From assembly GCA_937950385.1 (NCBI GenBank), contig CALFEA010000278.1, positions 1 to 21,502 of the forward strand: a stretch of DNA of 21,502 nt, read 5' to 3'. This DNA is from an uncultured Altererythrobacter sp. Its GTDB lineage: Bacteria > Pseudomonadota > Alphaproteobacteria > Sphingomonadales > Sphingomonadaceae. Below the pieces are notes generated by a model. That model was not told where the DNA came from and did no database searches. It worked only from the letters and a program-made list of their open reading frames with translations. The translations under genes and the position numbers were made by a program. This document shows positions 5,449 to 18,378 of this stretch, piece by piece (within the stretch, counting starts at the first letter, position 1; every line of letters starts with the position of its first letter).

Positions 5449-6671
5449 GCCAGCCAATCCTCAAGCATGGCATCTATCGCTGCAGGATCATTGCCCGTCA
5501 GCGCTAGATCAACTGCACGGTCTGCATCTTGCGCAGAAACCCCGCCCCATTTCGCCAGCGTGTGCATCTTTTCAATGATCCGCGCTTCCTCAACGGGCCG
5601 TTCTGGATCGCCCAGCGTATCGATAATCTCATGGCCGTTCACCCGTGCACCGAAATGCGCAGGATAGCGCGCAGTAATCGCGGCGTCTTGTGCCACAGAA
5701 ACCTGCGCGCGCAGGCCAGAAAGCGCGGCAATAGCGTCTTGGGTAAAATCCTCGGGATTGGCATCGCGGCCATCGGCCACAACCGCGACCGCATGTTGGA
5801 GCGAAAACTTAGCCTCTAATTCAGTCGTTGGATCGGGTCGGTCGCAGAAAGTAAGCGCATCGGCGAAAGTTTCGACATTAAACGGCGCTTTAAGCTGACC
5901 CGCCCTGCGCAATTCCATCGCAGCATCAATCGCTGGATGGGCGTGGCGACAGGCGGCAAACGGCTTGAAACTGACTTCATCAATCAACCACCCATCACCA
6001 GCACTTGCCAGTTCTCCTGGTTGATTGGTCATCGCAGCAAAGAGCCCTTGTGGTCCTTCCAGAATGCCAACTGGCCCAGTCGCGCCGAAATGCACATGCA
6101 ATGCTGCATCGCGCCCTGTGCGCACAGCGTGATATATATGCCATTGCTTGGTCAACACATTGTCGTGCCGCATATGCCAAAGCCCGCCAGCAACCGAGCC
6201 TGCATTGCCCAGCGCATTGCGATATTCCACCTCAGCAAATCCCATCAGCGAACCAAAGGCTGCTGCCGCGCCAAATACTCCAGCAGTCGCGGTCGGGTGC
6301 CAATGAGCATAGTGATGCGCATCCAGCGCCGACCCAATGGCTATCATCGCTTCATAGCCGCGAACGCCGGCATCAAGCCGGGCATCCATATCCGCACTGC
6401 TTAAGCTCATCGCTGTTGGCCAGATCACGGGGCCGGGATGGAGTAAGGCTGTACGGTGGACGTCATCCATTTCAAGCGCATTGCCGACATATGTTGCACG
6501 CTCCCAACCCTGACGCGAAATCCGCCCGCCAACATGCCCCGCCTCGCTATCGCGCGCGCCAACCAAGCAAGCGAGCCAATCAAGTAAGTGGAGACGTGCG
6601 CGCTTTCTCTCGCTTTCGCCTAAATTGCGCGCTATTGTCTGGACAAGTGTATGGAGGAGCGGGTCGATCAT
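5445..6671 (-). CDS. MmgE/PrpD family protein 2 (canonical motifs)
   Basis: This 408-residue protein keeps the family motifs. LLDWLACLVG is near residue 30, NALEMDDVHRTALLHPG near 65, HWHPTATAGVFGAAAAFG in the middle, and KPFAACRHAHPAIDAA in the second half. Members dehydrate, isomerise or decarboxylate small di- and tricarboxylates. Start ATG 6671 is chosen because GGAG lies eight bases upstream and a longer frame would run into the divergent gntR coding sequence. Only 23 bases separate the two start codons, so the promoter for this operon must lie inside gntR coding DNA or in that gap. A TTGTCCAGACAA palindrome falls in codons 9-13. It is the first gene of the seven-gene minus operon. Likely substrate: a carboxylate in the same pathway as the CitE/MaoC/CaiB genes (inference). 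Confidence 0.92.
   Translation of the reverse strand: MIDPLLHTLVQTIARNLGESERKRARLHLLDWLACLVGARDSEAGHVGGRISRQGWERATYVGNALEMDDVHRTALLHPGPVIWPTAMSLSSADMDARLDAGVRGYEAMIAIGSALDAHHYAHWHPTATAGVFGAAAAFGSLMGFAEVEYRNALGNAGSVAGGLWHMRHDNVLTKQWHIYHAVRTGRDAALHVHFGATGPVGILEGPQGLFAAMTNQPGELASAGDGWLIDEVSFKPFAACRHAHPAIDAAMELRRAGQLKAPFNVETFADALTFCDRPDPTTELEAKFSLQHAVAVVADGRDANPEDFTQDAIAALSGLRAQVSVAQDAAITARYPAHFGARVNGHEIIDTLGDPERPVEEARIIEKMHTLAKWGGVSAQDADRAVDLALTGNDPAAIDAMLEDWLA
6635..6646. promoter_or_regulatory. Putative GntR operator, site 1 (TTGTCTGGACAA)
   Basis: This 12-base near-palindrome differs by one central base from the TTGTCCGGACAA core found at four other places in the window. It is the exact reverse complement of the second tonB1 site core. 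It lies 48 bases before the gntR ATG at 6695 and inside the first codons of the divergent mmgE2 gene, the expected place for autoregulation of gntR. The flanks (A/T at the outer positions) are less perfect than at the other sites. Confidence 0.65.
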
Positions 6672-6694
6672 TCGCCCTGCTCCGCGAAACGGAA

Positions 6695-7477
6695 ATGGGA
6701 TTGGAAATCGACTTGGCAGAGGCCGCCGCGCCCAAGAAAATAAGCGCTGAAAAAAAGACACCGCGCTACCTGCAGCTTGCAGGTGAATTGCGCGAGGCGA
6801 TTGTCTCTGGTCGCTACGCCAATGGGCGACAGTTCCCGACCGAAACTGCGCTTTGCAAACAATTTGACGTCAGCCGCTTTACCGTGCGCGAAGCACTGAA
6901 AAGACTTCAAGGTGAAGGGCTGATCGAACGCAAGCGCGGCTCTGGCACCATTGTTCAACCTGCATCTGCACGAGGCGGCGCATTGCATCAACCGCTCTCT
7001 AACGTGGGCGAATTGCTGCAATATGCCAGAGGAAGCGAAGTCATTTATAGCGCCCAAGGCTCTGGCACCTTGCCCGCGAGCGTTTCTGATCAAATCGAAG
7101 AGAGCACCAATGGGATCTGGCGCCGTTTTAGCGGCACACGCCGACAAAATGCTGACTCGCCGCCGATTGCCGTCACCGATGCCTATTTTCACGAGAAATT
7201 GGGAGATGCGGTTGAACAGCTCGATCTTGGAGCCGGGACTTTGTTCAGCCAGATCGAAAAACTGACCGGCATTACTGTCGCGCGCGTAACGCAAGATATT
7301 CAAGCTATTGCCGCTAATTCCGCAATGGCCAGAGCACTCGACATTAAGCGGGGCGAACCGATATTGCGGATCATCCGGTGCTATCTCGATACGAAGGGCG
7401 CGGTTTACGAAATCTCGGTCAGCCATCATCCCGGTAACCGCTTCGCCTATTCGATGCATATCGATCTTGACGCGTAG
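6695..7477 (+). CDS. GntR-family transcriptional regulator, HutC subfamily (UTRA domain)
   Basis: This is a 260-residue regulator. A winged-helix GntR DNA-binding domain spans about residues 22-90 (YLQLAGELREAIVSG; FPTETALCKQFDVSRFTVREAL; GLIERKRGSGTIV). A C-terminal UTRA-type ligand domain spans about 100-255 (ITVARVTQDIQAIAAN, PILRIIRCYLD, YEISVSHHPGNRFAYSMH). HutC-type members typically bind short TTGTNNNNACAA-like palindromes and release them on binding a pathway metabolite. The window contains six such palindromes, making this the best candidate for controlling all the transport and catabolic genes. Start ATG 6695 fits the domain; an in-frame GTG at 6647 directly after the operator would add 16 residues and is less likely. 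It is transcribed against its neighbours, between the two minus operons, and its stop is 20 bases from the converging CaiB gene end. Confidence 0.94.
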   Translation: MGLEIDLAEAAAPKKISAEKKTPRYLQLAGELREAIVSGRYANGRQFPTETALCKQFDVSRFTVREALKRLQGEGLIERKRGSGTIVQPASARGGALHQPLSNVGELLQYARGSEVIYSAQGSGTLPASVSDQIEESTNGIWRRFSGTRRQNADSPPIAVTDAYFHEKLGDAVEQLDLGAGTLFSQIEKLTGITVARVTQDIQAIAANSAMARALDIKRGEPILRIIRCYLDTKGAVYEISVSHHPGNRFAYSMHIDLDA

Positions 7478-7497
7478 GGGGGCAGCGGAGAGTTTCA

Positions 7498-8592
7498 TCA
7501 ATTTTCGCCCAGAGCTGGCGTTTTGCTGGGCGTGAATTGCGTTCCGGCAAAACGGATTGGCGAAGCTATATGATGTGCCCCGCTTTCATCCTCGACCAGC
7601 AGTCCGCGCTCTGCAATATGCGGCTGATCAAGCGCTTCGCGAAAATCAAGAACGGGCGAAAATGCAACGTCTTTGTCAGCAAACCAAGCGATCCATTCCC
7701 GTCGCGTCTTGGACGAAAATGTATCGGCTAGGAATGCGATAAGATCGCTTTGTTCACCTGCCTCGCGCTCAGCATGAGCGATCAAATCTTCGCGGCCCAA
7801 AGCGGTCAGCAAAGTGCGCGCAAACTTCATCTCGCGCCCGCCAAGTGCAACGTGTTTGCCATCCTTGGTCTTGTATATTTGGTAAAAGCCCGCACCGCCG
7901 AGCGAACGCTGACTGGTAGACTTCGGGCTTTCGCCGCCTGCAATCGCGCTGCCAGCGGTATGCGCACACCATGGCAACATTGCATCGAACATAGCGCAGT
8001 CGATATAGGCTCCCTCGCCTGTTCGATCCCTGCTCAGCAGCGCCATCAAGACCGCCGATAGACCAGTAAGGCCAGCTGCCATATCCGCGCTGGGCGCGCC
8101 TGGTACAACTGGCGTTCCATCGGCACCATCATTGACGCTAAGAAAACCAGCAAGGGCCTGCACGGCCATATCATGCGCAGGGTGATGCGCGAGTTCACCC
8201 TCTTGGCCGAACGCGGAAATTGAACAGTAAACGATGTCAGGCTTGATGGCTTTCACGCTGTCATAATCAAAACCCAACCGCTTCATAACACCGGGCCTAA
8301 AACCTTCGACAAAGACATCAGCCTCGGCGCATAATTTGGCCAGTTCAGCCTTGCCTTCTTCGCTTTTCAGATCGAGGACAAAGCTGCGCTTGCCGCGGTT
8401 GAGATTGGCGAACCACACTGAATGCGCATCATCGCCATTGCCTTCCTTAGGCAGCATATCGCGCGCTGGATCGCCCGCCGCTGGCTCGACTTTCATCACC
8501 TGCGCGCCGTGATCAGCCATCATGACAGTCATCATCGGTCCCGGCAGAAATTGCGTCAGATCGACGACCTTTATGTCCGCTAATTTACCCAT
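7498..8592 (-). CDS. CaiB/BaiF (type III) CoA-transferase 1
   Basis: Family III CoA-transferases move CoA between carboxylic acids through an Asp-anchored intermediate; the family also holds alpha-methylacyl-CoA racemases. This 364-residue protein begins with KVVDLTQFLPGPM, has LNRGKRSFVLDLKSEEG near residue 65-80 and VEGFRPGVMKRLG near 95-107, and carries the expected catalytic Asp141 in PAHDMAVQALAG. It is somewhat short, as for racemase-like members. A purine-rich AGAGGACGAG lies before ATG 8592, and 42 bases separate it from the stop of the second CaiB gene. It is the last gene of the five-gene minus operon. In itaconate- or oxalate-type pathways such enzymes supply the CoA ester from succinyl-CoA or another donor; substrate here unknown. 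Confidence 0.92.
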   Translation of the reverse strand: MGKLADIKVVDLTQFLPGPMMTVMMADHGAQVMKVEPAAGDPARDMLPKEGNGDDAHSVWFANLNRGKRSFVLDLKSEEGKAELAKLCAEADVFVEGFRPGVMKRLGFDYDSVKAIKPDIVYCSISAFGQEGELAHHPAHDMAVQALAGFLSVNDGADGTPVVPGAPSADMAAGLTGLSAVLMALLSRDRTGEGAYIDCAMFDAMLPWCAHTAGSAIAGGESPKSTSQRSLGGAGFYQIYKTKDGKHVALGGREMKFARTLLTALGREDLIAHAEREAGEQSDLIAFLADTFSSKTRREWIAWFADKDVAFSPVLDFREALDQPHIAERGLLVEDESGAHHIASPIRFAGTQFTPSKTPALGEN

Positions 8593-8634
8593 GATGCGCT
8601 CGTCCTCTGATTGGTTCTTGGCCCGCTGCCAAAA

Positions 8635-9858
8635 TCACACAATACCGCTGGCACGTAGACTGGCGATGGCATCAGCATCATAGCCCAGCTCGTCCAACAA
8701 GGCATCACTATCTGCCCCAAGCAAAGGCGCAGCGCGGTTTGGCAGGCGTTCACCGTCCAATTTGATTGGACTGGCCAGCACGTCGATGGATTCACGATCG
8801 GGATGTGAAACCGTGTCGCGCATTCCGATAGTTTGGAGCCAAGGGTTATCCATCGCATCAGCCAGCTCGTAAACCGGCGCAACCGGTACAAGTCCAGCAA
8901 GCAGTTCCTGCCAATGCGCCATCGGCTTTTGCGAAAATTCTGCATCAAGAAGCTCGGTTAAAGCGGCACGATTGGCCAGCCGGTCGGCATTGGTGGCAAA
9001 GCGGGCGTCATTCAGCAGATCGTTGCGGCCCATTCGTTGGGTCAAGATATCCCAAAATTTGGGCAGTTGGCACATAACGAACATCCACCCATCAGCCGCT
9101 TTGAACATCTGGCTGGGGGTGGCGGTGGGATGCGCCGACCGCGGGGTGCGGGCCGTTTCATCCGCCTCGTTCATATACCACAGCGCGGGGTAGCTAGTTT
9201 GATGGACCGCAGCCGACAACAGATCGGTATCTACATCGCGGCCTTTGCCGGTGCGCTGCGCATCGGTAAGCGCCGCCAGCAATCCGATGGTGAAAATCGT
9301 GCCCGTCATGAAATCGACCATCGATAGGCCCATGCGTTGCGGTTCGGTTCCTGGTTCTCCGGTCAGTGCGCAATAGCCCGCCTCTGCCTGCATCAGATAG
9401 TCATAACCCGGCCATTTCGTGCGCTCATTATCGCGCCCATATGCCGACAAATGCGCGCAAACGATCGCGGGGTTCACATCCTTGACCGCGTCATAGGTAA
9501 GCCCCAGCTTTTCCGGCAAATCGCCGCGCATATTGTTCGCCACGACATCGCTGGATGCGGCCAGCTTGCGGAAAATCGCCTGTCCCTCATCGCTGCGCAA
9601 ATCGAGTGTCAGCGATTTTTTGTTAAGATTGAAGGCCTGAAAATACAGGCTCTCCCCCTTACTGAGAAAATGCGGCCCGACCGCACGCGCCGTGTCGCCG
9701 CCGCCCACCTTTTTGCCATCAGGCCCATCTTTGCGCGGCGGCTCGATCTTGATCACCTCTGCGCCCAATTGCGCCAAATGCATGGTACCATATGGACCAG
9801 CACCATATTGCTCGGCGCTGATGATCCGAAAGCCGGCGAGAGGAAGATTGAGGCTCAT
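8635..9858 (-). CDS. CaiB/BaiF (type III) CoA-transferase 2
   Basis: This is a 407-residue type III CoA-transferase of standard length. The N-terminus has FRIISAEQYGAGPYGTMHLA followed by LGAEVIKIEPP, then LNKKSLTLDL near residue 78-87. Catalytic Asp153 sits in the canonical GYDYLMQAEAG. It is clearly diverged from the neighbouring CaiB copy, so the two probably act on different acids or form a heteromer as some succinyl-CoA-dependent transferases do. ATG 9858 is ten bases after the acyl-CoA dehydrogenase stop, with no strong ribosome site, so translational re-initiation is likely. It belongs to the CitE-MaoC-dehydrogenase operon. Confidence 0.94.
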   Translation of the reverse strand: MSLNLPLAGFRIISAEQYGAGPYGTMHLAQLGAEVIKIEPPRKDGPDGKKVGGGDTARAVGPHFLSKGESLYFQAFNLNKKSLTLDLRSDEGQAIFRKLAASSDVVANNMRGDLPEKLGLTYDAVKDVNPAIVCAHLSAYGRDNERTKWPGYDYLMQAEAGYCALTGEPGTEPQRMGLSMVDFMTGTIFTIGLLAALTDAQRTGKGRDVDTDLLSAAVHQTSYPALWYMNEADETARTPRSAHPTATPSQMFKAADGWMFVMCQLPKFWDILTQRMGRNDLLNDARFATNADRLANRAALTELLDAEFSQKPMAHWQELLAGLVPVAPVYELADAMDNPWLQTIGMRDTVSHPDRESIDVLASPIKLDGERLPNRAAPLLGADSDALLDELGYDADAIASLRASGIV

Positions 9859-9868
9859 GCTAGGTTGA

Positions 9869-11053
9869 TCAGATCTTGTTTTCTTTAAGGTGCTGCTTGG
9901 CGATAATCATTCGTTGCATTTCATTGGTACCTTCGCCGATACACATCAGCATGCTATCGCGGTAATAGCGCTCAATATCGTATTCTTTGGAGTAGGAATA
10001 TCCGCCGTAAATTCGCATTGCCTCTTGGCTGTTTTCAACCGCGGCTTCGGATGCGAAATATTTTGCAATACCCGCCTCTTTGTCGCAGCGCTCGCCAAGG
10101 TCATAGGCTTCCGATGCATCGAGCGTAAGCAACCGCGCAGCCCGGGCCCGCGTCACCATCTCGCCCAATTTAAGCTGAATCGCCTGATGCTGAGCGATCG
10201 GCTTGCCCATGGTTTCGCGCTGTTGGGAGTATTCAGTCGCGAGGCGCAAGGCCCCTTCGGCTAGGCCAACACCGCGCGCAGCGACATTGATGCGCCCCAG
10301 TTCTAGCCCGCCGGTTGCCTGGAAAAATCCTTGTCCTTCTTCACCGCCGATCAATTGGTCAGCAGGGATGCGATAGTCGTCCATGACAAGTTCAGCTGAA
10401 TCGATCGCTTTGTAACCAAGCTTGTCGAATTTCTTACCTGTCGTCAGACCGTCTCGCTTGTCTGCGATAAACAAGCTCATGCCCTTGTACCGCGGATCCG
10501 CATCAGGGTTGGTCTTGACCAGCATTGCAAAGCAATGACCGTTCACCGCGTTTGAGATCCAAGTCTTGGTGCCGTTGATCACATAATCATCACCGTCACG
10601 CACCGCGACACTGCGAATGGCCTGCAAATCGGTTCCTGCGTTGGGTTCGGTCAGGGCAAGACCGCCGCGAAGTTCACCAGAAGCCAGCTTCGGCAACCAC
10701 TTCGCCTTTTGTTGCGGTGTTCCAAAACGTTCGACCGCAGCCGCCATAATCAAATGCGAGTTAAAAATACCGGTAATCGCCATCCAATAGCTAGAAATTC
10801 GCATCACAATTTTTGCATAAGTGGTCGCGGGCAAGCCTAACCCGCCATATTCTTGACCGATAGTGGCCCCGAACAAACCCATTTCGGCCATTTGATCAAC
10901 GAGCTTTTCCGGCCAAATATCACCATGATCATGATGCTGAATAACAGGAATAACCTCGCGCTCAAGCCAACGGTCAATCGCATCCATGAAGGCGCGCTCT
11001 TCCTCTGGGTCGATGGTACGAATTTGATCTGTCAATACTGCGGCGGTTGCCAT
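9869..11053 (-). CDS. Acyl-CoA dehydrogenase
   Basis: This FAD enzyme introduces an alpha,beta double bond into an acyl-CoA and passes electrons to ETF. The 394-residue length is typical. Visible signatures are EYGGLGLP near 68-75, LTEPNAGTD at 134-142, TWISNA around 164-169, and the C-terminal IYGGYSYSKEYDIERYYRD. The active-site base is Glu374 in CIGEGTNEMQR. It is much shorter than methylsuccinyl-CoA dehydrogenase of the ethylmalonyl-CoA pathway. The start ATG 11053 has AAAGGAA eight bases upstream and lies 45 bases after the MaoC stop. Within the operon it would act after CoA-ester formation and before hydration by the MaoC protein. Chain length and branching of the substrate cannot be inferred reliably. 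Confidence 0.96.
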   Translation of the reverse strand: MATAAVLTDQIRTIDPEEERAFMDAIDRWLEREVIPVIQHHDHGDIWPEKLVDQMAEMGLFGATIGQEYGGLGLPATTYAKIVMRISSYWMAITGIFNSHLIMAAAVERFGTPQQKAKWLPKLASGELRGGLALTEPNAGTDLQAIRSVAVRDGDDYVINGTKTWISNAVNGHCFAMLVKTNPDADPRYKGMSLFIADKRDGLTTGKKFDKLGYKAIDSAELVMDDYRIPADQLIGGEEGQGFFQATGGLELGRINVAARGVGLAEGALRLATEYSQQRETMGKPIAQHQAIQLKLGEMVTRARAARLLTLDASEAYDLGERCDKEAGIAKYFASEAAVENSQEAMRIYGGYSYSKEYDIERYYRDSMLMCIGEGTNEMQRMIIAKQHLKENKI

Positions 11054-11098
11054 TGTGCTTTCCTTTGGGGGTGAGTTTAAGGGGGGAGGAGGATTGCT

Positions 11099-11608
11099 TC
11101 AGTCGTCGAGGCCGCCAAAGCCGCGGCGCCACACCAAAACAGTGCGCTTATAGTGGCTTACAATCTCTCCATTTTGATTTTTGGCGATAGTCTTAAACGT
11201 GACGATGCCTTGTTCAGGGCGGCTTTTGCTTTCACGCAATTCCAGCACTTCACTCTCGCAATATAAGGTATCACCAACGAACAATGGCTTGACCATGCGA
11301 ACCTCGTCCCAGCCAAGGTTAGCGATAGCTTTGCCGCTCGTGTCCGACACACTCATGCCAGTCATCAGCGCGATGGTGAACGGGCTAACTACAAGCGGTT
11401 TACCAAATTCGGTATCTTTCGAAAGCTCATAATCGAAATGCGCAGGATGAGTATTCATCGTAAGCAGTGTGAACCAGACATTGTCCGCATCCGTTATGGT
11501 GCGCCCAGGCCGGTGCTCATAGACGTGCCCTTCTACGAAATCTTCGAAATAGCGCCCCTGCACTTCACGGAAGCGTCCAGGGGCCACTTCGATTACGCCA
11601 TCACGCAT
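11099..11608 (-). CDS. MaoC-type (hot-dog fold) enoyl-CoA hydratase
   Basis: This 169-residue single hot-dog domain protein has GRYFEDFVEGHVYEHRPGRTITDAD at the start. It then carries a hydratase-2-like active-site segment MNTHPAHFDYE (Asn52, His54, His57, Asp59), and KPLFVGDTLYCESEV in the second half. It probably hydrates an unsaturated acyl-CoA, or dehydrates the reverse. Single-domain MaoC proteins beside a CitE lyase and a CaiB transferase are known for itaconyl-CoA hydratase loci, and the arrangement here is the same. The start ATG 11608 has AAGGAAT directly upstream and overlaps the CitE stop by eight bases. Confidence in the family is high; the itaconyl or mesaconyl specificity is only suggested by context. 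Confidence 0.92.
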   Translation of the reverse strand: MRDGVIEVAPGRFREVQGRYFEDFVEGHVYEHRPGRTITDADNVWFTLLTMNTHPAHFDYELSKDTEFGKPLVVSPFTIALMTGMSVSDTSGKAIANLGWDEVRMVKPLFVGDTLYCESEVLELRESKSRPEQGIVTFKTIAKNQNGEIVSHYKRTVLVWRRGFGGLDD

Positions 11609-12428
11609 GAGAATTCCTTTCTTTGCGCGCTAAGGTAGCGCGATGCTTTTTCACCAAGGGCGCCTCTAACATTTGCCCTTTATAACGGATCGCCTTTTCG
11701 CCGGCATCTTCATAAGCACGCAGCGCATCTGCTGCGGCATTGACGGCCTCTTCGCCGGGCTCAAACGCCGCTTCAATGGCGGGAATCTGCCTGGGGTGAA
11801 TGGCCGCTTTTGCATCAAAGCCAATGCTTTCAGCCCGGCAGCATTCCTCGGCTAAGCCCTCGTCATCATCCAATTTGACGAAGGGCACATCAATCGCTGG
11901 CAATTTATGTTCAGAGCAGGCGAACACGAATTGCTGACGGGCGGTTATAAGCGGTTCCCACGCAAGATCGACACCCAGTTCGCCAGAAAAATCCCCGCCG
12001 CCAAACATCATTGCTGCATTGCCCTTGGCAGCGGCAATCTCATGCGCATGACGCAATCCCTTGGGGGTCTCGATCAGAGGAATGAGGCCAGGGCAACGAT
12101 CACCTAAAGCCTTGTAAACCACCTCAACCTCAACCACGCTTTCCACCATAGGCAAAAGTAGAAAAGGTGGCAGCGTCTCGGCATGGATCAGTGCGGCGAG
12201 ATCGCAAATGCCTTCTGCCGTATCCACTGCATTCATCCGAAGCCCCCACCCCGCTGTTTCATTATTGGCAAACTGGCTGAGAGCACTTGCCCGCGCGGTG
12301 TCTTTGTCATCTGAACTGACCGCATCTTCCAAATCGATCACAGTAACGCCCGCGTCAGATCCGCGCGCTTTTGCAAAACGATCGGGCCTCGACCCCGGGA
12401 CAAATAACAGACTGCTGACTGCAAACAC
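11601..12428 (-). CDS. HpcH/HpaI aldolase / CitE-type acyl-CoA lyase
   Basis: This is a 275-residue CitE-like TIM-barrel lyase. LFVPGSRPDRFAKA is at residues 8-21, DLEDAV at 32-37, Arg64 is the likely CoA/carboxylate ligand, and Glu120 (LIETPKGL) and Asp146 (GGGDFSGELG) are the Mg2+ ligands. KAAIHPRQI is at 207-215. Relatives cleave malyl-, citramalyl- or beta-methylmalyl-CoA to acetyl- or propionyl-CoA plus glyoxylate or pyruvate. The start is GTG 12428, with GGAG eight bases upstream. It is the promoter-proximal gene of the five-gene operon, preceded by two copies of the shared palindrome. Being first in the operon with MaoC overlapping its end suggests these two carry out the terminal hydrate-then-cleave step. 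Confidence 0.95.
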   Translation of the reverse strand: MFAVSSLLFVPGSRPDRFAKARGSDAGVTVIDLEDAVSSDDKDTARASALSQFANNETAGWGLRMNAVDTAEGICDLAALIHAETLPPFLLLPMVESVVEVEVVYKALGDRCPGLIPLIETPKGLRHAHEIAAAKGNAAMMFGGGDFSGELGVDLAWEPLITARQQFVFACSEHKLPAIDVPFVKLDDDEGLAEECCRAESIGFDAKAAIHPRQIPAIEAAFEPGEEAVNAAADALRAYEDAGEKAIRYKGQMLEAPLVKKHRATLARKERNSHA

Positions 12429-12472
12429 GCACCAAACTCCAAACGAGCAAATTAGATGAGACCTTCCCCTTC

Positions 12473-12501
12473 ACAATTTGTCCGGACAAATCTAAAGTCA
12501 A
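12473..12501 (-). promoter_or_regulatory. Possible promoter of the CitE-MaoC-ACAD-CaiB operon
   Basis: On the minus strand TTGACT (12501-12496) matches five of six bases of the -35 consensus. A 17-base spacer leads to a weak AATTGT at 12478-12473. The spacer and the -10 region are occupied by the palindrome at 12476-12491, the layout expected for repression by polymerase exclusion. The -10 match is poor, so the call is tentative. Confidence 0.35.
12476..12491. promoter_or_regulatory. Putative GntR operator, site 2 (ATTTGTCCGGACAAAT)
   Basis: A perfect 16-base palindrome in the 125-base gap between the divergent CitE operon and DUF1838 gene. Its centre is 39 bases from the centre of the neighbouring identical site. 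It lies 48 bases upstream of the GTG start of the CitE-type lyase. The same 16-mer recurs at 12515, 17540 and 18362. Confidence 0.85.
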
Positions 12502-12514
12502 GAGAGAATCGCAA

Positions 12515-12530
12515 ATTTGTCCGGACAAAT
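12515..12530. promoter_or_regulatory. Putative GntR operator, site 3 (ATTTGTCCGGACAAAT)
   Basis: A perfect 16-base palindrome identical to the one at 12476. It ends 23 bases before the DUF1838 start codon and just before its ribosome site (GGAGAA, 12540-12545). At this distance it would sit at or after the transcription start of the plus-strand genes. Two sites 39 bases apart could allow cooperative binding over both divergent promoters. Confidence 0.85.
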
Positions 12531-12553
12531 GCGTTTTTTGGAGAACGATACCA

Positions 12554-13477
12554 ATGACACTTCGTCGTATTTTTGCAAGTTTCGTCACTGCCGCGCTGCT
12601 AAGCGCAAGCCATAGTGCAACCGCGCGGACGCTTGATCCGGCGGTCGCAGAAGACGCCATCGAAATTTCTAAGCGTTTACAATGTGGTGTTTCGGCCGAT
12701 GAACCTGCGGTCTACCATTGGTCGGGCAATATCTATGGCCGATCACCTGGACAGCGCGATAAGCTGCTTTTCAGAGGCGAAGGCATGAATATTCGCCGCT
12801 GCGTCGAGGTCAGTGATCCGGTTCGCGGAGAAGGTTGGCGGCTAATTAGCCGCGAGATCATGCTGATGCTCGACCCGAAAACTGGCGAAGTCGTCAATGA
12901 ATGGGAGAACCCCTACACTGGCAAAACGGTATCGGTGATGCAGATCCACAACGATCCCGTGAATGGCCGCCCAAACTTTCCGCGCGGCGCTGACGGAAAA
13001 CCATTCCAGCTTTCAACCATGCGCGTTGCTGGCCCTTACGTTTTCATGCCATTCGAAGTGCCGCTATTTTATACCAATCCTTTGGCAGGCGATTATCAAG
13101 AATATGTGGGCGGCAAATATCACGCGATGGAGATATTCGATTTTGCGGCACTGAAGGACGAGTTGTTCGATACGACCAAGCCCACCGCTTATCCGATGAT
13201 TAGCTGGGTACGCATTTCCGGTTGGGCCCCTTGGATGGAGATGGGTGGACGGCCTGGTCAAATGGTGTTCAACGCTATGGGCCGGAAATTGCCCGGTGGG
13301 TTTGAAGAACTGCCCGCTGTGTTGAAGAATGAAATTCGCGCGAATTATCCGATTTACGAGCAAGCGCCTCCCAAGAATGACACCCGCCGCAATGAGACAA
13401 CTTGGACCAAGTTTAAGATGCTTACCGACAAGTCACGCGCGGAATCCGCCGAGGAAAAACCTGTAGGCGGGGATTAA
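12554..13477 (+). CDS. Exported DUF1838 family protein
   Basis: This 307-residue protein has a Sec signal peptide (MTLRRIF, then a hydrophobic stretch, predicted cleavage after ATA near residue 24). The mature part follows the DUF1838 pattern: VYHWSGNIYGRSPGQ, RLISREIMLMLDPKTGEVVNEWENPYTGKTV and VMQIHNDPVN around residues 50-140, then a Trp- and Gly-rich second half (WVRISGWAPWMEMGGRPGQM). DUF1838 has no established activity that I know of. GGAGAA lies eight bases before ATG 12554. The gene is followed six bases later by the flavin amine oxidase, so the pair is probably co-transcribed and both products are periplasmic. Two copies of the shared palindrome lie directly upstream. The single Cys of the mature N-terminus (LQCGV) and Cys in RRCVEV could form a disulfide. 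Confidence 0.88.
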   Translation: MTLRRIFASFVTAALLSASHSATARTLDPAVAEDAIEISKRLQCGVSADEPAVYHWSGNIYGRSPGQRDKLLFRGEGMNIRRCVEVSDPVRGEGWRLISREIMLMLDPKTGEVVNEWENPYTGKTVSVMQIHNDPVNGRPNFPRGADGKPFQLSTMRVAGPYVFMPFEVPLFYTNPLAGDYQEYVGGKYHAMEIFDFAALKDELFDTTKPTAYPMISWVRISGWAPWMEMGGRPGQMVFNAMGRKLPGGFEELPAVLKNEIRANYPIYEQAPPKNDTRRNETTWTKFKMLTDKSRAESAEEKPVGGD

Positions 13478-13483
13478 TCTCCT

Positions 13484-14893
13484 GTGCCGATAGCTGATCG
13501 GCGTTCTTTCCTTGCAGGAAGCAGTGCGGCTTTAATCGCTGGAGCTGCGCCGCGCGCGGCATGGGGCCGCACACAGGTTGATGTTGCTATTGTTGGAGCA
13601 GGCTTAGCAGGGCTCCACGCGGCGAAAATATGCGAAAATGCGGGCCTTAGCGTAGTGGTTCTTGAGGCCGAGAACCGCATCGGAGGCAGGCTGCATACGC
13701 TTGATGATCTACCTGGCGCACCTGATGCTGGCGGTATCCAAGTTGGCGCAGGCTACAAACGTCTCCAGAATATCGCCCGCGAGCTGCGCGTTGAGCTCTC
13801 GGACAATATAGGAAGTGGTGCGGGCCGGGCGCAAACGCCTGGAAACCTCTATTCCATCGGCGGGATCACCGCCTCTCCCCAGGCCTGGCCGCAAAGCGCA
13901 GGCAATATGCTATCCGACGATGAACGCGCTATCGAACCCGCTCGTTTGCTAAGCTATTATGCGCGTAGTCTACCCCAATTCGCACAGCCTACGGACTGGC
14001 TGACTGCGCCGTCAGACCAAGACATCTCAGTTCGCCAAGCCTTGCGCCAAGCCGGAGCAAGCGCAGAGGCCCTTCGTTTAATCGAGGCCAATTTCAACGG
14101 CAATAGCCTGGCCGGGATGTCGCAGCTTCACCTTGCTCGCAGTTTCGCAATCTTTCGCAGCCAGCCCGGTCCTGTCTCAACCATTGTTGGCGGCTCGCAG
14201 CGGCTGCCTGAGGCCATGGCAAAAAGCCTAACGCGAGATGTCAGACTGGCCGAACCCGTTCGCGCTATTCAAGAGGAGGCAGATGGGGTCACATTGAAGC
14301 TGGAGGGTGGCAGTATCACCGCGCGCCATGCGATCTGCACAATTCCATTTGCGGCCATGCGCCAAATTCCGCTCCGGTCTGAAATGCCGCTAGATATGGC
14401 ACGAATGATTGCAAGCCTGCCCTACACCCGCGCCACTTTTGCTTATATCACTGCGCGCGAGCCATTTTGGCGAAGCGACCCCCTTCCCGATACGCTTTGG
14501 AGCGATGATCCTTTAATTGGCCGCATCTTTGTATTGGGCGATGAACCAGCGATGCTGAAACTATGGACGACGGGAGCTGGCGCGGACTTGCTGGATCGCT
14601 TGCCTAAAACCGATGCGGAAAGGATGATTATGGATCGCATCGAACGAGCCCGCCCCTCTGCCAAAGGCAAGCTCGACAGCGTTCAGCTTTATAGCTGGCA
14701 GCGCAATCCCCATGCACGGGGCATTTATCATCATGTTGGCACCGGCATGGCTAGCGCCTTGGCAACTTCGGCCCAAGTGCGCGGCAATCGACTCCATTTT
14801 GCGGGCGAGCACTTAGCGACCCAAAATAGCGGCATGGAAGGCGCCCTTGAGAGCGGTGAGCGTGCCGCGCGCTTCGTCATTTCAAGCGCTTAG
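13484..14893 (+). CDS. Tat-exported flavin amine oxidase family protein
   Basis: This is a 469-residue FAD-dependent amine oxidase-fold protein. The N-terminus carries a twin-arginine motif DRRSFLAG (Arg6-Arg7), a hydrophobic Ala-rich segment and cleavage near AAWG (residue 28). It would therefore be exported folded with its flavin. The dinucleotide motif VGAGLAG is at 37-43, ribose-binding Glu61 at the end of beta-2, RIGGRL at 65-70, and the C-terminal FAD motif LHFAGEHLATQNSGMEGALESGERAA. Relatives oxidise amines, amino acids or polyene and phenolic substrates, with O2 or another acceptor. The GTG start at 13484 lies six bases after the DUF1838 stop with a G-rich AGGCGGGG upstream. Pairing with DUF1838 suggests a shared periplasmic oxidation step. 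No covalent-flavin Cys is evident. Confidence 0.92.
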   Translation: MPIADRRSFLAGSSAALIAGAAPRAAWGRTQVDVAIVGAGLAGLHAAKICENAGLSVVVLEAENRIGGRLHTLDDLPGAPDAGGIQVGAGYKRLQNIARELRVELSDNIGSGAGRAQTPGNLYSIGGITASPQAWPQSAGNMLSDDERAIEPARLLSYYARSLPQFAQPTDWLTAPSDQDISVRQALRQAGASAEALRLIEANFNGNSLAGMSQLHLARSFAIFRSQPGPVSTIVGGSQRLPEAMAKSLTRDVRLAEPVRAIQEEADGVTLKLEGGSITARHAICTIPFAAMRQIPLRSEMPLDMARMIASLPYTRATFAYITAREPFWRSDPLPDTLWSDDPLIGRIFVLGDEPAMLKLWTTGAGADLLDRLPKTDAERMIMDRIERARPSAKGKLDSVQLYSWQRNPHARGIYHHVGTGMASALATSAQVRGNRLHFAGEHLATQNSGMEGALESGERAARFVISSA

Positions 14894-14913
14894 CTGAAGC
14901 TGAATCGCAATAA

Positions 14914-14942
14914 AAGAGCGGGGACATTGTGCCCCCGCTCTT
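14914..14942 (-). terminator. Intrinsic terminator between converging amine oxidase and TonB receptor 1
   Basis: A perfect 10-base-pair stem (AAGAGCGGGG / CCCCGCTCTT) encloses a 9-base loop. On the minus strand it is followed by TTTTATTG, so it is a standard rho-independent terminator for TonB receptor 1, whose stop codon is 42 bases upstream. On the plus strand the stem follows the amine oxidase stop but lacks a real T-run, so it would work only weakly for that gene. Confidence 0.85.
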
Positions 14943-14983
14943 CATAATTGTGTTAGCCACAGGCGGCCGCTTGGCTGCCTTTC

Positions 14984-17482
14984 CTATTGGAACGAGTAAC
15001 TCAATCGCAGGCCGAATTGGCGGCGATCGCGAAGAATGACCCGCGCACCTTCCCGTGAGAAGTTAAAGAACCCGCCCGGCAATGTTCGAGTGCCGAAGCC
15101 TGTATCCGCAAAGTTTTGCGCCGATGTCGGTGCATCCTCGTCAAAAAGATTGGTGACAAAGAGCTCGACACCCAGGTTTTCACCCTGCAAACCAAAGCGC
15201 ACATTCACATCTGTTGCCGGTTCGACCTCAGCGACATTAGCATTTGAAACATAATACTCGCTGGTAAAGAACAGGTCCGTGCGCAAATACCATGTGTCGA
15301 TCATCTCGCCGAGACCATTGAACTGATCTTCATACTTCGTGCCCAAAGACAAGGTGATCGGCGGGAAGCGCGGCGCCTCCTGCCCGACCACACCATCATC
15401 GTTGCCGAAGATATCACCGAAGTCACCGCTTCCGCCGGAGGCAGGGAAACTCGCGATCGAAGAGTCGATATAGGCAAACGAGCCTTGCATCGAAAACTCG
15501 TCACTTATCTGCAATGCAGCATCAAGCTCAATACCGAAAATGTCAGTAGTCGCACCATTGGCAAGAAACTGAACAGTGCGCAGCGGATTTGGTGCCATCG
15601 GGCGAGTGTCGGTAACAACTTCAAACGAGTTAAACAGCTCATTTTTGCGCTGCATATGGAACAGCGCAAGGTTGAAGGCCACTTTCCCGTCATCAAACTG
15701 CTGCTTCCAGCCAAGCTCATAATTGACCAGCTTTTCTTCTCCAAATACCACGTTGGCATCGGGCGCAAGCGCATTGAGTTCGGCCAATTGTGCTGCATCA
15801 AGCTGCGCCACCTCTGCGTTGAAACCGCCAGGCAAGTTGCCTTCGCTATATGTGGCGTACAAAGTTGTGTCGCTGGACGGCTGATAGCGCAACGTAGCGC
15901 GAGGCAAGAAGTTGCTGATCGACGCAGGCGAAGTAGGCGTTGTCAGACCGACATTTACTTCATCTTCGTAGATCTCATCCTCTTGGTAGCGCCCCTCTAA
16001 TGTGATCGAAAGAGTGTCAGTGAACTGGTAGTCGATCAGACCAAAGACACCAATTGTCTCGGCACCTGACAAAAAGCCCACTTCACGAAAAATGTCCGAG
16101 AAGAAAATTGTAGGACCAAAAAAGCTAGCCGTGCCTCCTAACTCATTGATATCAATCGTGACGTAGCTTGCACCGACCAACACAGTCAGATCATCATCCA
16201 AGAAATTGCCTTGGAGCCGGCCTTCTAGCGTCAAATCTTCAGTTTCCCGCGCGCTGAAGCTGAGGAACGACTGGCCTGGCGTCAGATCGAAATCTGAAAA
16301 GAAACCAAAGTTTTCCTCGTTATAACCAGCCAAGAAACTGAACTCGATGTTATCACTTAGATCGACCGAACCCGTCGCACTCAATTGCAAAGAATCTAGG
16401 TTAAGGCCAAACTCATCGACATTGGTGGGATTGTATTTGAAGTCGAAAATCGCATCGCTCGGATCTGAACGGCCATCGTCCAAGAAACCGCGATACAGTG
16501 CAACGGAATCGGCTCCTGAGTTTTGACCAATCGCAGACGCCGGAGGTTGTGTAATCTGGCCGCGAAACACTGATTCTGTGCGATTACCGAAAGCTGGCTG
16601 ACTGCTGTCGTTCAGATCAACCGAACCGTCAGCATTGATCAAGAAACCGCCAAAGTTGTGCTGCGCAGTGCCAAAGTAGGAAGCAGCTGCCGCCGGTCCG
16701 TCAGTGATTTCTTGATACGATCCGCGCAGCTTCAAACGAAACGCTGAAGAAGGCTCAAACAGCAAGGAACCGTTGATAGACCATTGCTCTTGATCACCAA
16801 GCCGCTGGCCATCAACAGCAGCATTATCAAAATGACCATCCTTTGTGATGTAATTGCCGCCAGCGCGGAATGATAGTCCGTCAAACAACGGCCCTTCAAT
16901 GCCAGCAGATAAGCGGTATTCGTTACGTGTCGCTGCAGTTACATCGAGGTCAACGCGAAATTCATCGCTCGGATCCTTAGTGACGTAATTGATTGCACCT
17001 GCAAAGGTGTTCCGTCCGAAAAGGGCCGATTGCGGACCTTTGATGATTTCGACTCGCTGAAGCTCATTGATGCCGATCGTCTCAATGCCGCCACTCAAAT
17101 ACACTCCGTCGACAAAGACGGTAGCAGTCTGCTGGAGGCGATCGCCGCTCAGCACCGATACGCCCCGGAAACGCGGAGTACTGTTTATTCGCGCTGGGCC
17201 ATTCACATTGTTGCCAGTTGGTTCGACAAAAGCACCTGGTGACGCTTTGGTGATTTCGGTAATGTCGGTGTAGCCACCCTGCTCCAGTTCAGCTTCACCC
17301 AAAACAGTGACAGCCAATGGCGCATCTAGAAGCGTCTCTTCCTTCTTTCGCGCGGTGACGATAATCTCGTTTCCATTCGTCGCTACTCCATCGGCATTCG
17401 GTTCACTGGAAACTTGAGCAGATACCGCTCCCGGCGTCATAACAGTCGCGGCCAGCAAGGCGCCCTTCAACAGTATTTTCAT
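14984..17482 (-). CDS. TonB-dependent outer-membrane receptor 1
   Basis: This 832-residue receptor imports a scarce substrate across the outer membrane using TonB energy. The start ATG 17482 is preferred over an in-frame GTG at 17491 because GAGGGAG lies eight bases before the ATG. The signal peptide MKILLKGALLAATVM...AVSA is predicted to be cleaved after residue 22. A TonB-box-like NEIIVTARKKEE is near residue 38, followed by a plug with TVFVDGVYLSGGIETIGINE and RVEIIKGPQSALFGRNTFAGAINY. The remainder is a beta-barrel rich in alternating aromatic strands, ending in RLSYSFQ. The sphingomonad-type receptor family is large and substrates cannot be called from sequence. It has its own control region with two overlapping palindromes 58-87 bases upstream, and a terminator after it. 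Confidence 0.95.
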   Translation of the reverse strand: MKILLKGALLAATVMTPGAVSAQVSSEPNADGVATNGNEIIVTARKKEETLLDAPLAVTVLGEAELEQGGYTDITEITKASPGAFVEPTGNNVNGPARINSTPRFRGVSVLSGDRLQQTATVFVDGVYLSGGIETIGINELQRVEIIKGPQSALFGRNTFAGAINYVTKDPSDEFRVDLDVTAATRNEYRLSAGIEGPLFDGLSFRAGGNYITKDGHFDNAAVDGQRLGDQEQWSINGSLLFEPSSAFRLKLRGSYQEITDGPAAAASYFGTAQHNFGGFLINADGSVDLNDSSQPAFGNRTESVFRGQITQPPASAIGQNSGADSVALYRGFLDDGRSDPSDAIFDFKYNPTNVDEFGLNLDSLQLSATGSVDLSDNIEFSFLAGYNEENFGFFSDFDLTPGQSFLSFSARETEDLTLEGRLQGNFLDDDLTVLVGASYVTIDINELGGTASFFGPTIFFSDIFREVGFLSGAETIGVFGLIDYQFTDTLSITLEGRYQEDEIYEDEVNVGLTTPTSPASISNFLPRATLRYQPSSDTTLYATYSEGNLPGGFNAEVAQLDAAQLAELNALAPDANVVFGEEKLVNYELGWKQQFDDGKVAFNLALFHMQRKNELFNSFEVVTDTRPMAPNPLRTVQFLANGATTDIFGIELDAALQISDEFSMQGSFAYIDSSIASFPASGGSGDFGDIFGNDDGVVGQEAPRFPPITLSLGTKYEDQFNGLGEMIDTWYLRTDLFFTSEYYVSNANVAEVEPATDVNVRFGLQGENLGVELFVTNLFDEDAPTSAQNFADTGFGTRTLPGGFFNFSREGARVILRDRRQFGLRLSYSFQ

Positions 17483-17539
17483 AAATCGCACTCCCTCAAA
17501 ATTTTCTGCCTGAACCCAAAACTATTTCACGACATGGAT

Positions 17540-17555
17540 ATTTGTCCGGACAAAT
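17540..17555. promoter_or_regulatory. Putative GntR operator, site 4 (ATTTGTCCGGACAAAT)
   Basis: A perfect 16-base palindrome 58 bases upstream of the TonB receptor 1 ATG. It shares two bases with the next palindrome, giving a continuous 30-base double operator in the 134-base gap after the membrane-protein gene. Confidence 0.85.
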
Positions 17556-17569
17556 TTGTCCAGACAAAT
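17554..17569. promoter_or_regulatory. Putative GntR operator, site 5 (ATTTGTCCAGACAAAT)
   Basis: This is the same palindrome with a single central change (CG to CA). Its centre is 14 bases from site 4. Its 12-base core TTGTCCAGACAA is the exact reverse complement of the site in front of gntR at 6635-6646, so this variant is used twice in the window. Confidence 0.78.
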
Positions 17570-17616
17570 TCTGCCCACTATCCATAGGTGATTAAAACGC
17601 AAGAGTGGATGTGACT

Positions 17617-18300
17617 TTATGGCAACGGTTTGACATTGCCTAAAAATGCGGTTGCGAGCAGTAAAATATATACGGCCCACACCCAAATTCTTGTCTTGTT
17701 CATCGTTTTGAGCAAGGGGATTTCGGTTTCATCGCTCGAACCTTTTTCCAAGACCGCGCCCAACTGCGCGCCGACGGGTTTAAACGAAAAGTCGATCATG
17801 ATGGCGGCGACAAAGATGAAACCAAACAGCAGCGCTTTCCACGCTAACCAATCTGGCGAGAGCGGCGCATCGAGCAATAAGCTTTGTCCACCGAGCCAAA
17901 GGTAGAATGCGCCGACAATCCAGCGCAGCCATCCCTCAATACCGCGATTACGCGCAGCGCGCGGGGTCATATCATGGTTATGCGCATCCCAAACCAGCCA
18001 CAGCCAAAAACCTCCAATCGCCCAAGCAATGACAATCAGCCAAGATGGCGCATCCCACCAACCGCCCATATCAACCACACTAAGCGACAATGGCACCATC
18101 AACGCCCACGCACTGCGCGGGGTCATGTCAATCAGCACCAGCAATTTGAGCAGGGCAATCCTTTGCTCCAGCGTATACTCATCCCGCTTGCGGAAATGCT
18201 GCCCCAGCAGGAACACGCCTACATCAGCTCCCAGCCACAAAACGAACAATAACAGATGGGTATATACTAGCGTTGGATAGGCAAGATCGGGCAAGCTCAT
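17617..18300 (-). CDS. Six-helix integral membrane protein, unknown function
   Basis: This 227-residue inner-membrane protein has about six hydrophobic segments (roughly residues 11-33, 52-76, 86-105, 123-143, 152-172 and 205-222). TM1 carries a His (YTHLLLFVLWLGADVG, His15), a pattern seen in CopD- and cytochrome-b-like membrane proteins. Other His residues follow at 35, 107 and 109. Between helices there are two MTPR motifs (residues 59-62 and 111-114), suggesting an internal repeat or paired loops. The start ATG 18300 has GGAGA six bases upstream; an upstream in-frame start would translate through the operator and promoter and is rejected. I do not recognise a specific family with confidence. 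It is divergent to TonB receptor 2 and shares its control region, so it likely serves the same system, perhaps as an electron-transfer or accessory component. Confidence 0.75.
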   Translation of the reverse strand: MSLPDLAYPTLVYTHLLLFVLWLGADVGVFLLGQHFRKRDEYTLEQRIALLKLLVLIDMTPRSAWALMVPLSLSVVDMGGWWDAPSWLIVIAWAIGGFWLWLVWDAHNHDMTPRAARNRGIEGWLRWIVGAFYLWLGGQSLLLDAPLSPDWLAWKALLFGFIFVAAIMIDFSFKPVGAQLGAVLEKGSSDETEIPLLKTMNKTRIWVWAVYILLLATAFLGNVKPLP

Positions 18301-18324
18301 ATGTCGTCTCCATTGGGTTGAATA

Positions 18325-18354
18325 AACATACAAACACATTTGCCCGGTTGACAA
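18325..18354 (-). promoter_or_regulatory. Possible promoter of the six-helix membrane protein gene
   Basis: On the minus strand TTGTCA (18354-18349, five of six to consensus) is followed after 18 bases by TATGTT (18330-18325, four of six). This would start a transcript shortly before the ribosome site of the membrane protein gene. Its -35 overlaps the -35 of the plus-strand promoter for TonB receptor 2 on the opposite strand. Confidence 0.4.
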
Positions 18355-18377
18355 AAGGGAAATTTGTCCGGACAAAT
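18348..18377 (+). promoter_or_regulatory. Probable promoter of TonB receptor 2
   Basis: A perfect -35 hexamer TTGACA lies at 18348-18353. The -10 position at 17-18 bases spacing falls inside the right half of the palindrome (GACAAAT), which is a poor TATAAT match. Operator binding would directly cover the spacer and -10. Confidence 0.5.
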
Positions 18378-18378
18378 T
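18361..18378. promoter_or_regulatory. Putative GntR operator, site 6 (AATTTGTCCGGACAAATT)
   Basis: The longest copy, a perfect 18-base palindrome, sits in the 147-base gap between the divergent membrane-protein and TonB receptor 2 genes. It begins eight bases after a consensus TTGACA -35 element and ends 69 bases before the receptor start. A degenerate left half, ATTTGCCCGG, lies 24 bases upstream at 18338-18347. Confidence 0.86.

Follow-up and report, generated by a model that had tools for sequence, protein, structure and literature searches.

The 21,502-nucleotide stretch of contig CALFEA010000278.1 analysed here (assembly GCA_937950385.1, an uncultured Altererythrobacter sp.; "the window" below) carries a GntR/HutC-type regulator gene, gntR, among genes for acyl-coenzyme A (CoA) enzymes and TonB-dependent receptors. 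Our sequence comparisons suggest, with a probability of about 0.85, that the HutC-type GntR repressor encoded at 6695-7477 has the palindrome TTGTCCGGACAA (full site ATTTGTCCGGACAAAT) as its operator and governs a catabolic island. An earlier note on this DNA had described six sites with the core TTGTCC(G/A)GACAA, four of them the identical 16-mer ATTTGTCCGGACAAAT, and a motif scan of the 21.5 kb window confirmed their number and placement. The 16-mer matched exactly at 12476-12491 (operator 1), 12515-12530 (operator 2), 17540-17555 (operator 3) and 18362-18377 (operator 5), and with one mismatch at 17554-17569 (operator 4, ATTTGTCCAGACAAAT). At up to three mismatches the window held 5 matches of ATTTGTCCGGACAAAT vs 0.10 expected, and 0 of 100 shuffles reached 5, in agreement with the claim that the recurrence is beyond chance; these shuffles and the reversed-motif control rule out a chance repeat. 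The sixth core, TTGTCCAGACAA, is on the minus strand at 6635-6646.

Operator 1 is common to the citE and DUF1838 promoters, and operator 2 lies 39 nucleotides (nt) away in the DUF1838 leader; among relatives, operator 2 is exact in some and degenerate or absent in others. Operators 3 and 4 precede TonB receptor 1 and overlap by 2 nt, and the gene-strand form of operator 4, TTGTCTGGACAA, is the form kept before most receptor-1 relatives listed. Operator 5 separates the gene of a membrane protein from that of TonB receptor 2, with a TTGACA at 18348-18353, on the receptor side, 8 nt before the 16-mer. The operator-like site near gntR (TATTGTCTGGACAAGT, 6633-6648) is weakly conserved and has its core 48 nt before the gntR ATG, within the first codons of mmgE2. 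We read the starts as GTG 12428 (-) for citE, ATG 12554 (+) for DUF1838, ATG 18448 (+) for TonB receptor 2, ATG 17482 or GTG 17491 (-) for TonB receptor 1 and, from an orthologue alignment, ATG 18300 (-) for the membrane protein; the mmgE2 start was corrected to ATG 6671 (-), backed by orthologues. With these starts five sites are intergenic and the sixth lies before gntR inside the start of mmgE2, so that this part of the earlier description also holds.

We then asked whether the sites co-occur with gntR. The genus sample comprised 61 genomes, 16 of which, including the own genome, carried a GntR orthologue (E 1e-20 or better). At least three sites were present in 15 of these 16 genomes and in 0 of the 45 without the orthologue (Fisher 2e-13). 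The carriers had 10 (own genome), 7, 3, 1, 8, 7, 7, 7, 6, 7, 7, 7, 9, 5, 6 and 8 sites, in total 105 vs 5 for the reversed-motif control, and the 45 non-carriers had 10 sites vs 13 control matches (37 genomes with none, 6 with one and 2 with two). The family sample consisted of 159 genomes, namely those with a completeness of at least 90% plus the own genome; 29 had a GntR relative at E 1e-20 or better, and the 19 at 3.1e-50 or better were taken as orthologue carriers, the next relative scoring 8.5e-32. Here, 18/19 carriers vs 0/140 others had at least three sites; sites were present in all 19 carriers, and 20 of the 140 others had one or two. Three genomes (G000, G019 and G027; the own genome and two others) belong to both samples. 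Co-occurrence across both samples fits the claim that the one palindrome likely has one cognate GntR/HutC regulator.

The source genome is a metagenome-assembled genome of 2.05 Mb in 317 contigs with 72.6% completeness, and sites may therefore be missing from it. It contains ten exact TTGTCYRGACAA sites, six of them in the window, and none of the reversed pattern; at up to one mismatch there are 15 matches vs 9 for the control, placing the five one-mismatch matches at background level. The four sites outside the window all read AGTTGTCCGGACAAAT in one orientation and fall at or shortly before called gene starts: those of a third TonB receptor (contig C17, which also has MFS and FAD-oxidase genes), a methyltransferase-domain protein (C24), an alpha/beta hydrolase divergent from isochorismatase, two PuuE-like and aldehyde dehydrogenase genes (C185), and a SnoaL-like protein (C187). 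In the relative G004, counterparts of the C24, C185 and C187 genes lie with their sites in one run with the window genes, as do the MFS and FAD-oxidase counterparts of C17; a separate counterpart of the C17 receptor was not found in this run. Because the neighbours of the off-window sites sit with the window genes in relatives, we regard the system as an island regulon of which the window holds part. The regulon is thus neither complete nor local in the sense first claimed, as only 6 of the 10 assembly sites are in the window and the rest are by linked island genes.

From gntR to the outermost clustered site the distance is 36-51 kb in six relatives with the island on one contig (G004, G012, G026, G028, G031 and G036). 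Adding G035 gives the seven mapped relatives, those with islands mapped and sites on contigs of useful length, whose island stretches hold 47 of 49 exact sites, the exceptions being G028:C1:547355 and G036:C5:55302. The motif is hence not frequent away from the locus, a count that the earlier note had proposed as a check. Within the islands the sites mostly stand at the same gene starts, and two more distant relatives agree.

The sites are also conserved at orthologous loci. Among 63 named GTDB loci at which a GntR relative occurs, 52 had at least one exact core (several of the 11 loci without it are short pieces), and the reversed control was 0 in 63/63. An exact core lies upstream of citE in 48/49 loci (exception L181), with the 16-mer beginning 31-100 nt ahead of the citE start as set by tblastn. 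Searching from -260 to +60 of the matched start with the outer bases free (named loci and sample genomes overlap, and some are counted twice), we found a core near the start of DUF1838 in 47/48 cases, TonB receptor 2 in 34/40, TonB receptor 1 in 16/21, the membrane protein in 22/39, the alpha/beta hydrolase in 8/10, the methyltransferase in 9/11 and, with row L129 left out, the SnoaL-like protein of C187 in 7/10. The isochorismatase had a core at 0/8 starts, probably owing to over-long open reading frame (ORF) starts, as sites fall inside several Isoch matches. Sites kept at orthologous gene starts bear out the claimed link between receptors, periplasmic enzymes and cytoplasmic catabolism. In 36 non-redundant loci, the AT flanks of the citE operator and the adjoining promoter-like elements are near-invariant while the outer flanks drift, and CTTCACAATTTGTCCGGACAAATCTAAAGTCAAG around the operator is largely invariant. 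In those mapped relatives that have paired sites, the two are separated by 37-40 nt at citE/DUF1838 and by 42 nt in the gap between membrane protein and receptor.

The geometry at citE/DUF1838 points to repression. The putative DUF1838 promoter (TTCACA-17-TAAAGT, 12470-12498, plus strand), supported by a promoter scan, has operator 1 in its spacer, and the putative citE promoter (TTGACT-17-AATTGT, 12473-12501, minus strand), recognised by eye, overlaps it on the opposite strand. TTCACA is exact in 36 of 37 loci in which DUF1838 adjoins citE (37/37 at one mismatch; this set includes many close relatives) and in 0 of 11 loci in which it does not (2/11 at one mismatch), whereas the citE-strand TTGACT is present in 45/48 loci. 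As TTCACA tracks DUF1838 and TTGACT stays, each gene appears to have its own promoter, with a single operator in both spacers. Because the operator occupies the spacers of two overlapping promoters that face opposite ways, the regulator is most likely a repressor and not an activator at this position. Many of the sites listed for TonB receptor 2 and for the methyltransferase gene also have a TTGAC element in front of them; the promoter scan gave nothing useful at the receptor sites.

The sites, their conservation, their co-occurrence with gntR and the promoter-like geometry are observed directly; from them we infer binding, the sign of the regulation, a ligand and a substrate as follows. Without substrate, a GntR dimer would occupy the spacer or the -10 region of the citE, DUF1838, TonB receptor and further island promoters and keep them off; at citE/DUF1838 one dimer in the 17-nt spacer could shut both promoters. 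A catabolic intermediate would bind the UTRA domain and release GntR from its operators, and outer-membrane uptake, periplasmic steps and CoA-dependent cytoplasmic breakdown would be switched on together.

The regulator itself has the features of the HutC subfamily. It matches the GntR helix-turn-helix domain (PF00392, 74.4 bits vs a cut-off of 27) and the C-terminal UTRA domain of chorismate-lyase fold (PF07702, 60.8 bits vs 23.8), and its nearest relative by sequence in the PDB is YvoA (4u0v). In most HutC sites, GT and AC are 4 nt apart, according to the portion of Suvorova et al. (2015, PMC4494728) available to us; TTGTCCGGACAA has this GT-N4-AC palindrome and would be bound by GntR. The recognition-helix residues S, R, T and R, equivalent to FadR 44, 45, 47 and 49, are invariant in 60/60 aligned rows with letters; between R and T stands F in 53 rows and Y in 7. 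At HutC position 28 we found S in 32, T in 23, A in 4, N in 1 and Arg in none. The same portion of PMC4494728 pairs Arg28 with G/C at nucleotides 8/17 of HutC sites, and the T/A found at these nucleotides here is consistent with, although no proof of, a recognition by a protein lacking Arg at position 28. The scores stay below the equivalog cut-offs for HutC (TIGR02018, 89.7 of 220), PhnF (TIGR02325, 80.3 of 156.8) and the trehalose repressor (TIGR02404, 63.1 of 211.95), and none of the 23 NCBIfam models listed reached its cut-off for GntR. The protein thus resembles HutC, NagR/YvoA, DasR and PhnF in its GntR helix-turn-helix and UTRA domains, in the GT-N4-AC palindrome and in operators that serve transport and catabolism genes. 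It differs in that the core TTGTCCGGACAA has C-C-G-G at its centre instead of the consensus M-T-A-K given in that portion of PMC4494728, and in that its targets include acyl-CoA enzymes. Scans of the window and of linked contigs named no histidine pathway gene. Reconstructed HutC (histidine) regulons of Caulobacterales and Sphingomonadales include a TonB-dependent transporter, as described in the section of PMC5343134 consulted, and provide a precedent for the present layout. PheR of Sphingobium is likewise a sphingomonad repressor with a catabolic operon and, more broadly, outer-membrane TonB functions; it differs in belonging to the IclR family, in its GCAACG motif, in its aromatic substrate and in that the TonB effect is a broader downstream one (PMC13273656, as far as the excerpt goes). 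Two side observations concern the gene in other genomes: the gntR orthologue L105 (G076:C3:311929-312687) has one in-frame TAG, yet five sites remain, and L110 (G070:C2:967349-968089) is a second GntR relative, with 38% identity, in a nine-site genome.

Several observations weigh against a GntR operator of this kind. Relatedness inflates the counts, and the Fisher values treat genomes as independent; the 36 citE loci were chosen for an exact core, so that core invariance there is by selection. Two further island genes lack a site before their starts (c24_ADH 0/3, c24_VOC1 0/3). The -10 element of the citE promoter (AATTGT) is poor and absent from the promoter scan list, the promoter overlaps both the DUF1838 promoter and the operator, so that its conservation is no independent evidence, and TonB receptor 1 has no clear -35/-10. 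Of 61 regions upstream of gntR, 24 have a site matching at least 10 of 12 positions, whereas most loci have a weak one or none, and among loci titled Erythrobacter only 1 of 19 reaches this level. In 200 mononucleotide shuffles the mean was 0.4 and the maximum 3, and the control motif gave 0; conserved autoregulation of gntR appears only partly supported. G006 and G208 retain gntR with one exact site and little island in the stretch examined. Finally, G151 carries the orthologue and has the 12-mer 41 times, mostly scattered off the island. The loci of G006 (L094, L095) and G208 (L200, L201) look like an apparent decay of the regulon.

The scatter in G151 raises the question of whether the sites represent a palindrome or repeat element that is iterated throughout the genome and has no regulatory role. 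In G151 (loci L185-L193), TGTCCGGACA occurs in 95 copies across 3.4 Mb, vs 0 for the reversed control and 0 in its genus mate G215, and eight scattered 12-mer places, without shared flanks by eye, all lie in open stretches of more than 200 codons. These copies are perhaps a species-specific highly iterated palindrome. The own genome, however, has 10 sites with 6 of them in this 21.5 kb, and in the remaining orthologue carriers 1-12 sites were counted, which cluster at gene starts in the genomes mapped. A general sphingomonad repeat is ruled out for the own genome, though G151 shows a repeat-like spread, and we consider a repeat without regulatory role highly improbable. Hardly more probable is that the palindrome belongs to another island regulator, such as a protein of LysR or Lrp type encoded on contigs C17 and C187, with gntR merely linked. 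Lrp- or LysR-like genes, recognised by similarity or by eye, do occur in or beside the island in some genomes, but the GT-N4-AC symmetry is HutC-like, sites also precede gntR itself in the 24/61 loci, and gntR, the one regulator gene detected in the window, goes with the sites from genome to genome. We give somewhat more room, while still thinking it unlikely, to GntR acting at the same sites as an activator or dual regulator, since certain sites are placed upstream of a -35, as operator 2 is from the citE side, and TTGTCC could itself act as a poor -35. Yet the most conserved operator sits in the spacer of two promoter-like pairs, and several sites at the methyltransferase gene and TonB receptor 2 closely follow a TTGAC element, both of which are polymerase-blocking positions.

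The position of gntR is unusual. In all 55 loci with the three genes (54 fetched plus the window), gntR lies on the opposite strand between caiB1 and mmgE2. Its stop-to-stop gap to caiB1 has a median of 8 nt and is at most 21 nt in 52/55 loci, 2 of these overlapping, and the estimated starts of gntR and mmgE2 are within 66 nt of each other in 54/55. A terminator-like hairpin on the operon strand was present in 2/55 loci (scan without positive control). The gene order, an antisense gene in a co-directional run with almost no intergenic space, is that of a putative noncontiguous operon, a term for operons in which an inner gene is encoded on the other strand and through which one transcript would run. 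The half comprising mmgE2, mmgE1, ligase, amidase and short-chain dehydrogenase/reductase (SDR) genes has no conserved operator of its own. With this half and a gntR-proximal site that is often degenerate and kept in only 24/61 loci, the claim that the whole window behaves as one system did not stand as worded. An operator inside gntR serving mmgE2 was rejected, as a core at up to one mismatch was present in 2/60 gntR ORFs, both near the ORF start. The simplest way in which the mmgE2 half could come under GntR is read-through from the citE promoter. Substrate would lift citE repression, and transcription would then pass antisense through gntR into mmgE2-mmgE1-ligase-amidase-SDR, co-expressing both operon halves and lowering GntR synthesis as a built-in positive feedback. 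The antisense placement makes this simple feedback circuit testable. The joint reading, of a repressor embedded in its own target operon with antisense feedback in an imide-degrading island, is offered tentatively and is doubtful as a whole.

For the substrate, the nearest known pathway is itaconate degradation (RipABC: CoA-transferase, Ich hydratase, Ccl lyase), which resembles the run of CaiB, MaoC and CitE genes here. MaoC has its best match in RipB (NF038241, 222.9 vs a cut-off of 340) and CitE in RipC (NF038242, 220.7 vs 375). The window differs in that these cut-offs are not reached and in adding MmgE/PrpD, ligase, amidase and TonB receptor genes, for which reasons the substrate is probably a branched acid other than itaconate. 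mmgE2 has distant matches to IDS epimerase and cis-aconitate decarboxylase structures. In the linked operons, two PuuE-like hydrolases score below the allantoinase cut-off, and there is a third match that is more distant. A hydrolase of the isochorismatase family matches N-carbamoylsarcosine amidohydrolase as well as 4l07, which we take to be a maleamate amidase, and these operons further encode LeuC/LeuD-like and HMGL-like proteins and a CaiB. LeuC (634.9 of 531), LeuD (222.5 of 167) and the HMGL-like protein (270.9 of 246) pass general NCBIfam subfamily cut-offs, which taken alone would allow house-keeping roles. A second LeuC relative with 49-51% identity is present elsewhere in 3/3 genomes searched (the G012 copy with one in-frame TGA); we therefore discarded plain leucine biosynthesis for the island LeuCD, and the island LeuC is probably not the leucine enzyme.

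Considered alongside those of the window, these enzymes point to cyclic imides and branched dicarboxylates as substrates, and such a set would be suited to open a substituted cyclic imide and to carry out deamidation, hydration and cleavage of a C-C bond. The PuuE-like hydrolases, the maleamate-amidase-like hydrolase, the LeuCD-like hydratase and the HMGL- and Ccl-like lyases would form this route, and the island would import and degrade a nitrogen heterocycle that gives rise to cyclic imides with alkyl substituents and may stem from tetrapyrrole pigments. Among the natural sources of substituted cyclic imides is the breakdown of tetrapyrroles. The island occurs in Erythrobacter, and loci related to it are present in Novosphingobium, Sphingorhabdus and Blastomonas, among others. 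Porphyrobacter sp. HT-58-2 is the dominant member of the Erythrobacteraceae in a culture of a tetrapyrrole-producing cyanobacterium, which is a hint only, as degradation is not reported in the part of PMC10459692 at hand.

Among the open-licence PMC papers listed we found nothing on point on this regulon or on tetrapyrrole, imide or chlorophyll catabolism in these bacteria; the 12-mer appeared only in one unrelated Drosophila paper and DUF1838 in one antibiotic-cluster paper. The system is of an ordinary kind, a conserved single-operator GntR regulon over a catabolic island, of which we found no study of this member in these papers; distinctive here are the shared double promoter and the unusual embedded position of the repressor gene. 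With it, a large island for uptake and catabolism gains one operator and one regulator that can be tested. The regulon groups orphan genes (DUF1838, the membrane protein, three TonB receptors and several C-N hydrolases), which probably act on the same substrate; with a reporter driven from this operator, that substrate could be screened for directly.

The remaining features of the window are as follows. On the minus strand lie genes for the SDR oxidoreductase (513-1313), the amidase (1639-2802), a PaaK-like CoA ligase (2786-4153) and the MmgE/PrpD family proteins mmgE1 (4150-5457) and mmgE2 (5445-6671), followed by gntR on the plus strand (6695-7477; 260 amino acids). The minus strand continues with CaiB/BaiF CoA-transferase 1 (caiB1, 7498-8592), whose stop codon is 20 nt from that of gntR, CaiB/BaiF CoA-transferase 2 (8635-9858), an acyl-CoA dehydrogenase (9869-11053), the maoC/ich-like hydratase (11099-11608; nearest NCBIfam model RipB/Ich, below its cut-off) and the citE/ccl-like C-C lyase (11601-12428; nearest RipC/Ccl, likewise below). 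The DUF1838 protein (12554-13477) and a flavin amine-oxidase-like protein (13484-14893) are encoded on the plus strand, their N-termini being signal-like and Tat-like, respectively, by eye. TonB-dependent receptor 1 (14984-17491) and the hydrophobic membrane protein (17617-18300; multi-pass by eye, no Pfam family) are on the minus strand and TonB-dependent receptor 2 (18448-20985) is on the plus strand. Outside the window, a transposase-like ORF recognised by eye (L026, 7555-7996) lies at the end of contig C17, past the receptor, MFS and FAD-oxidase genes.

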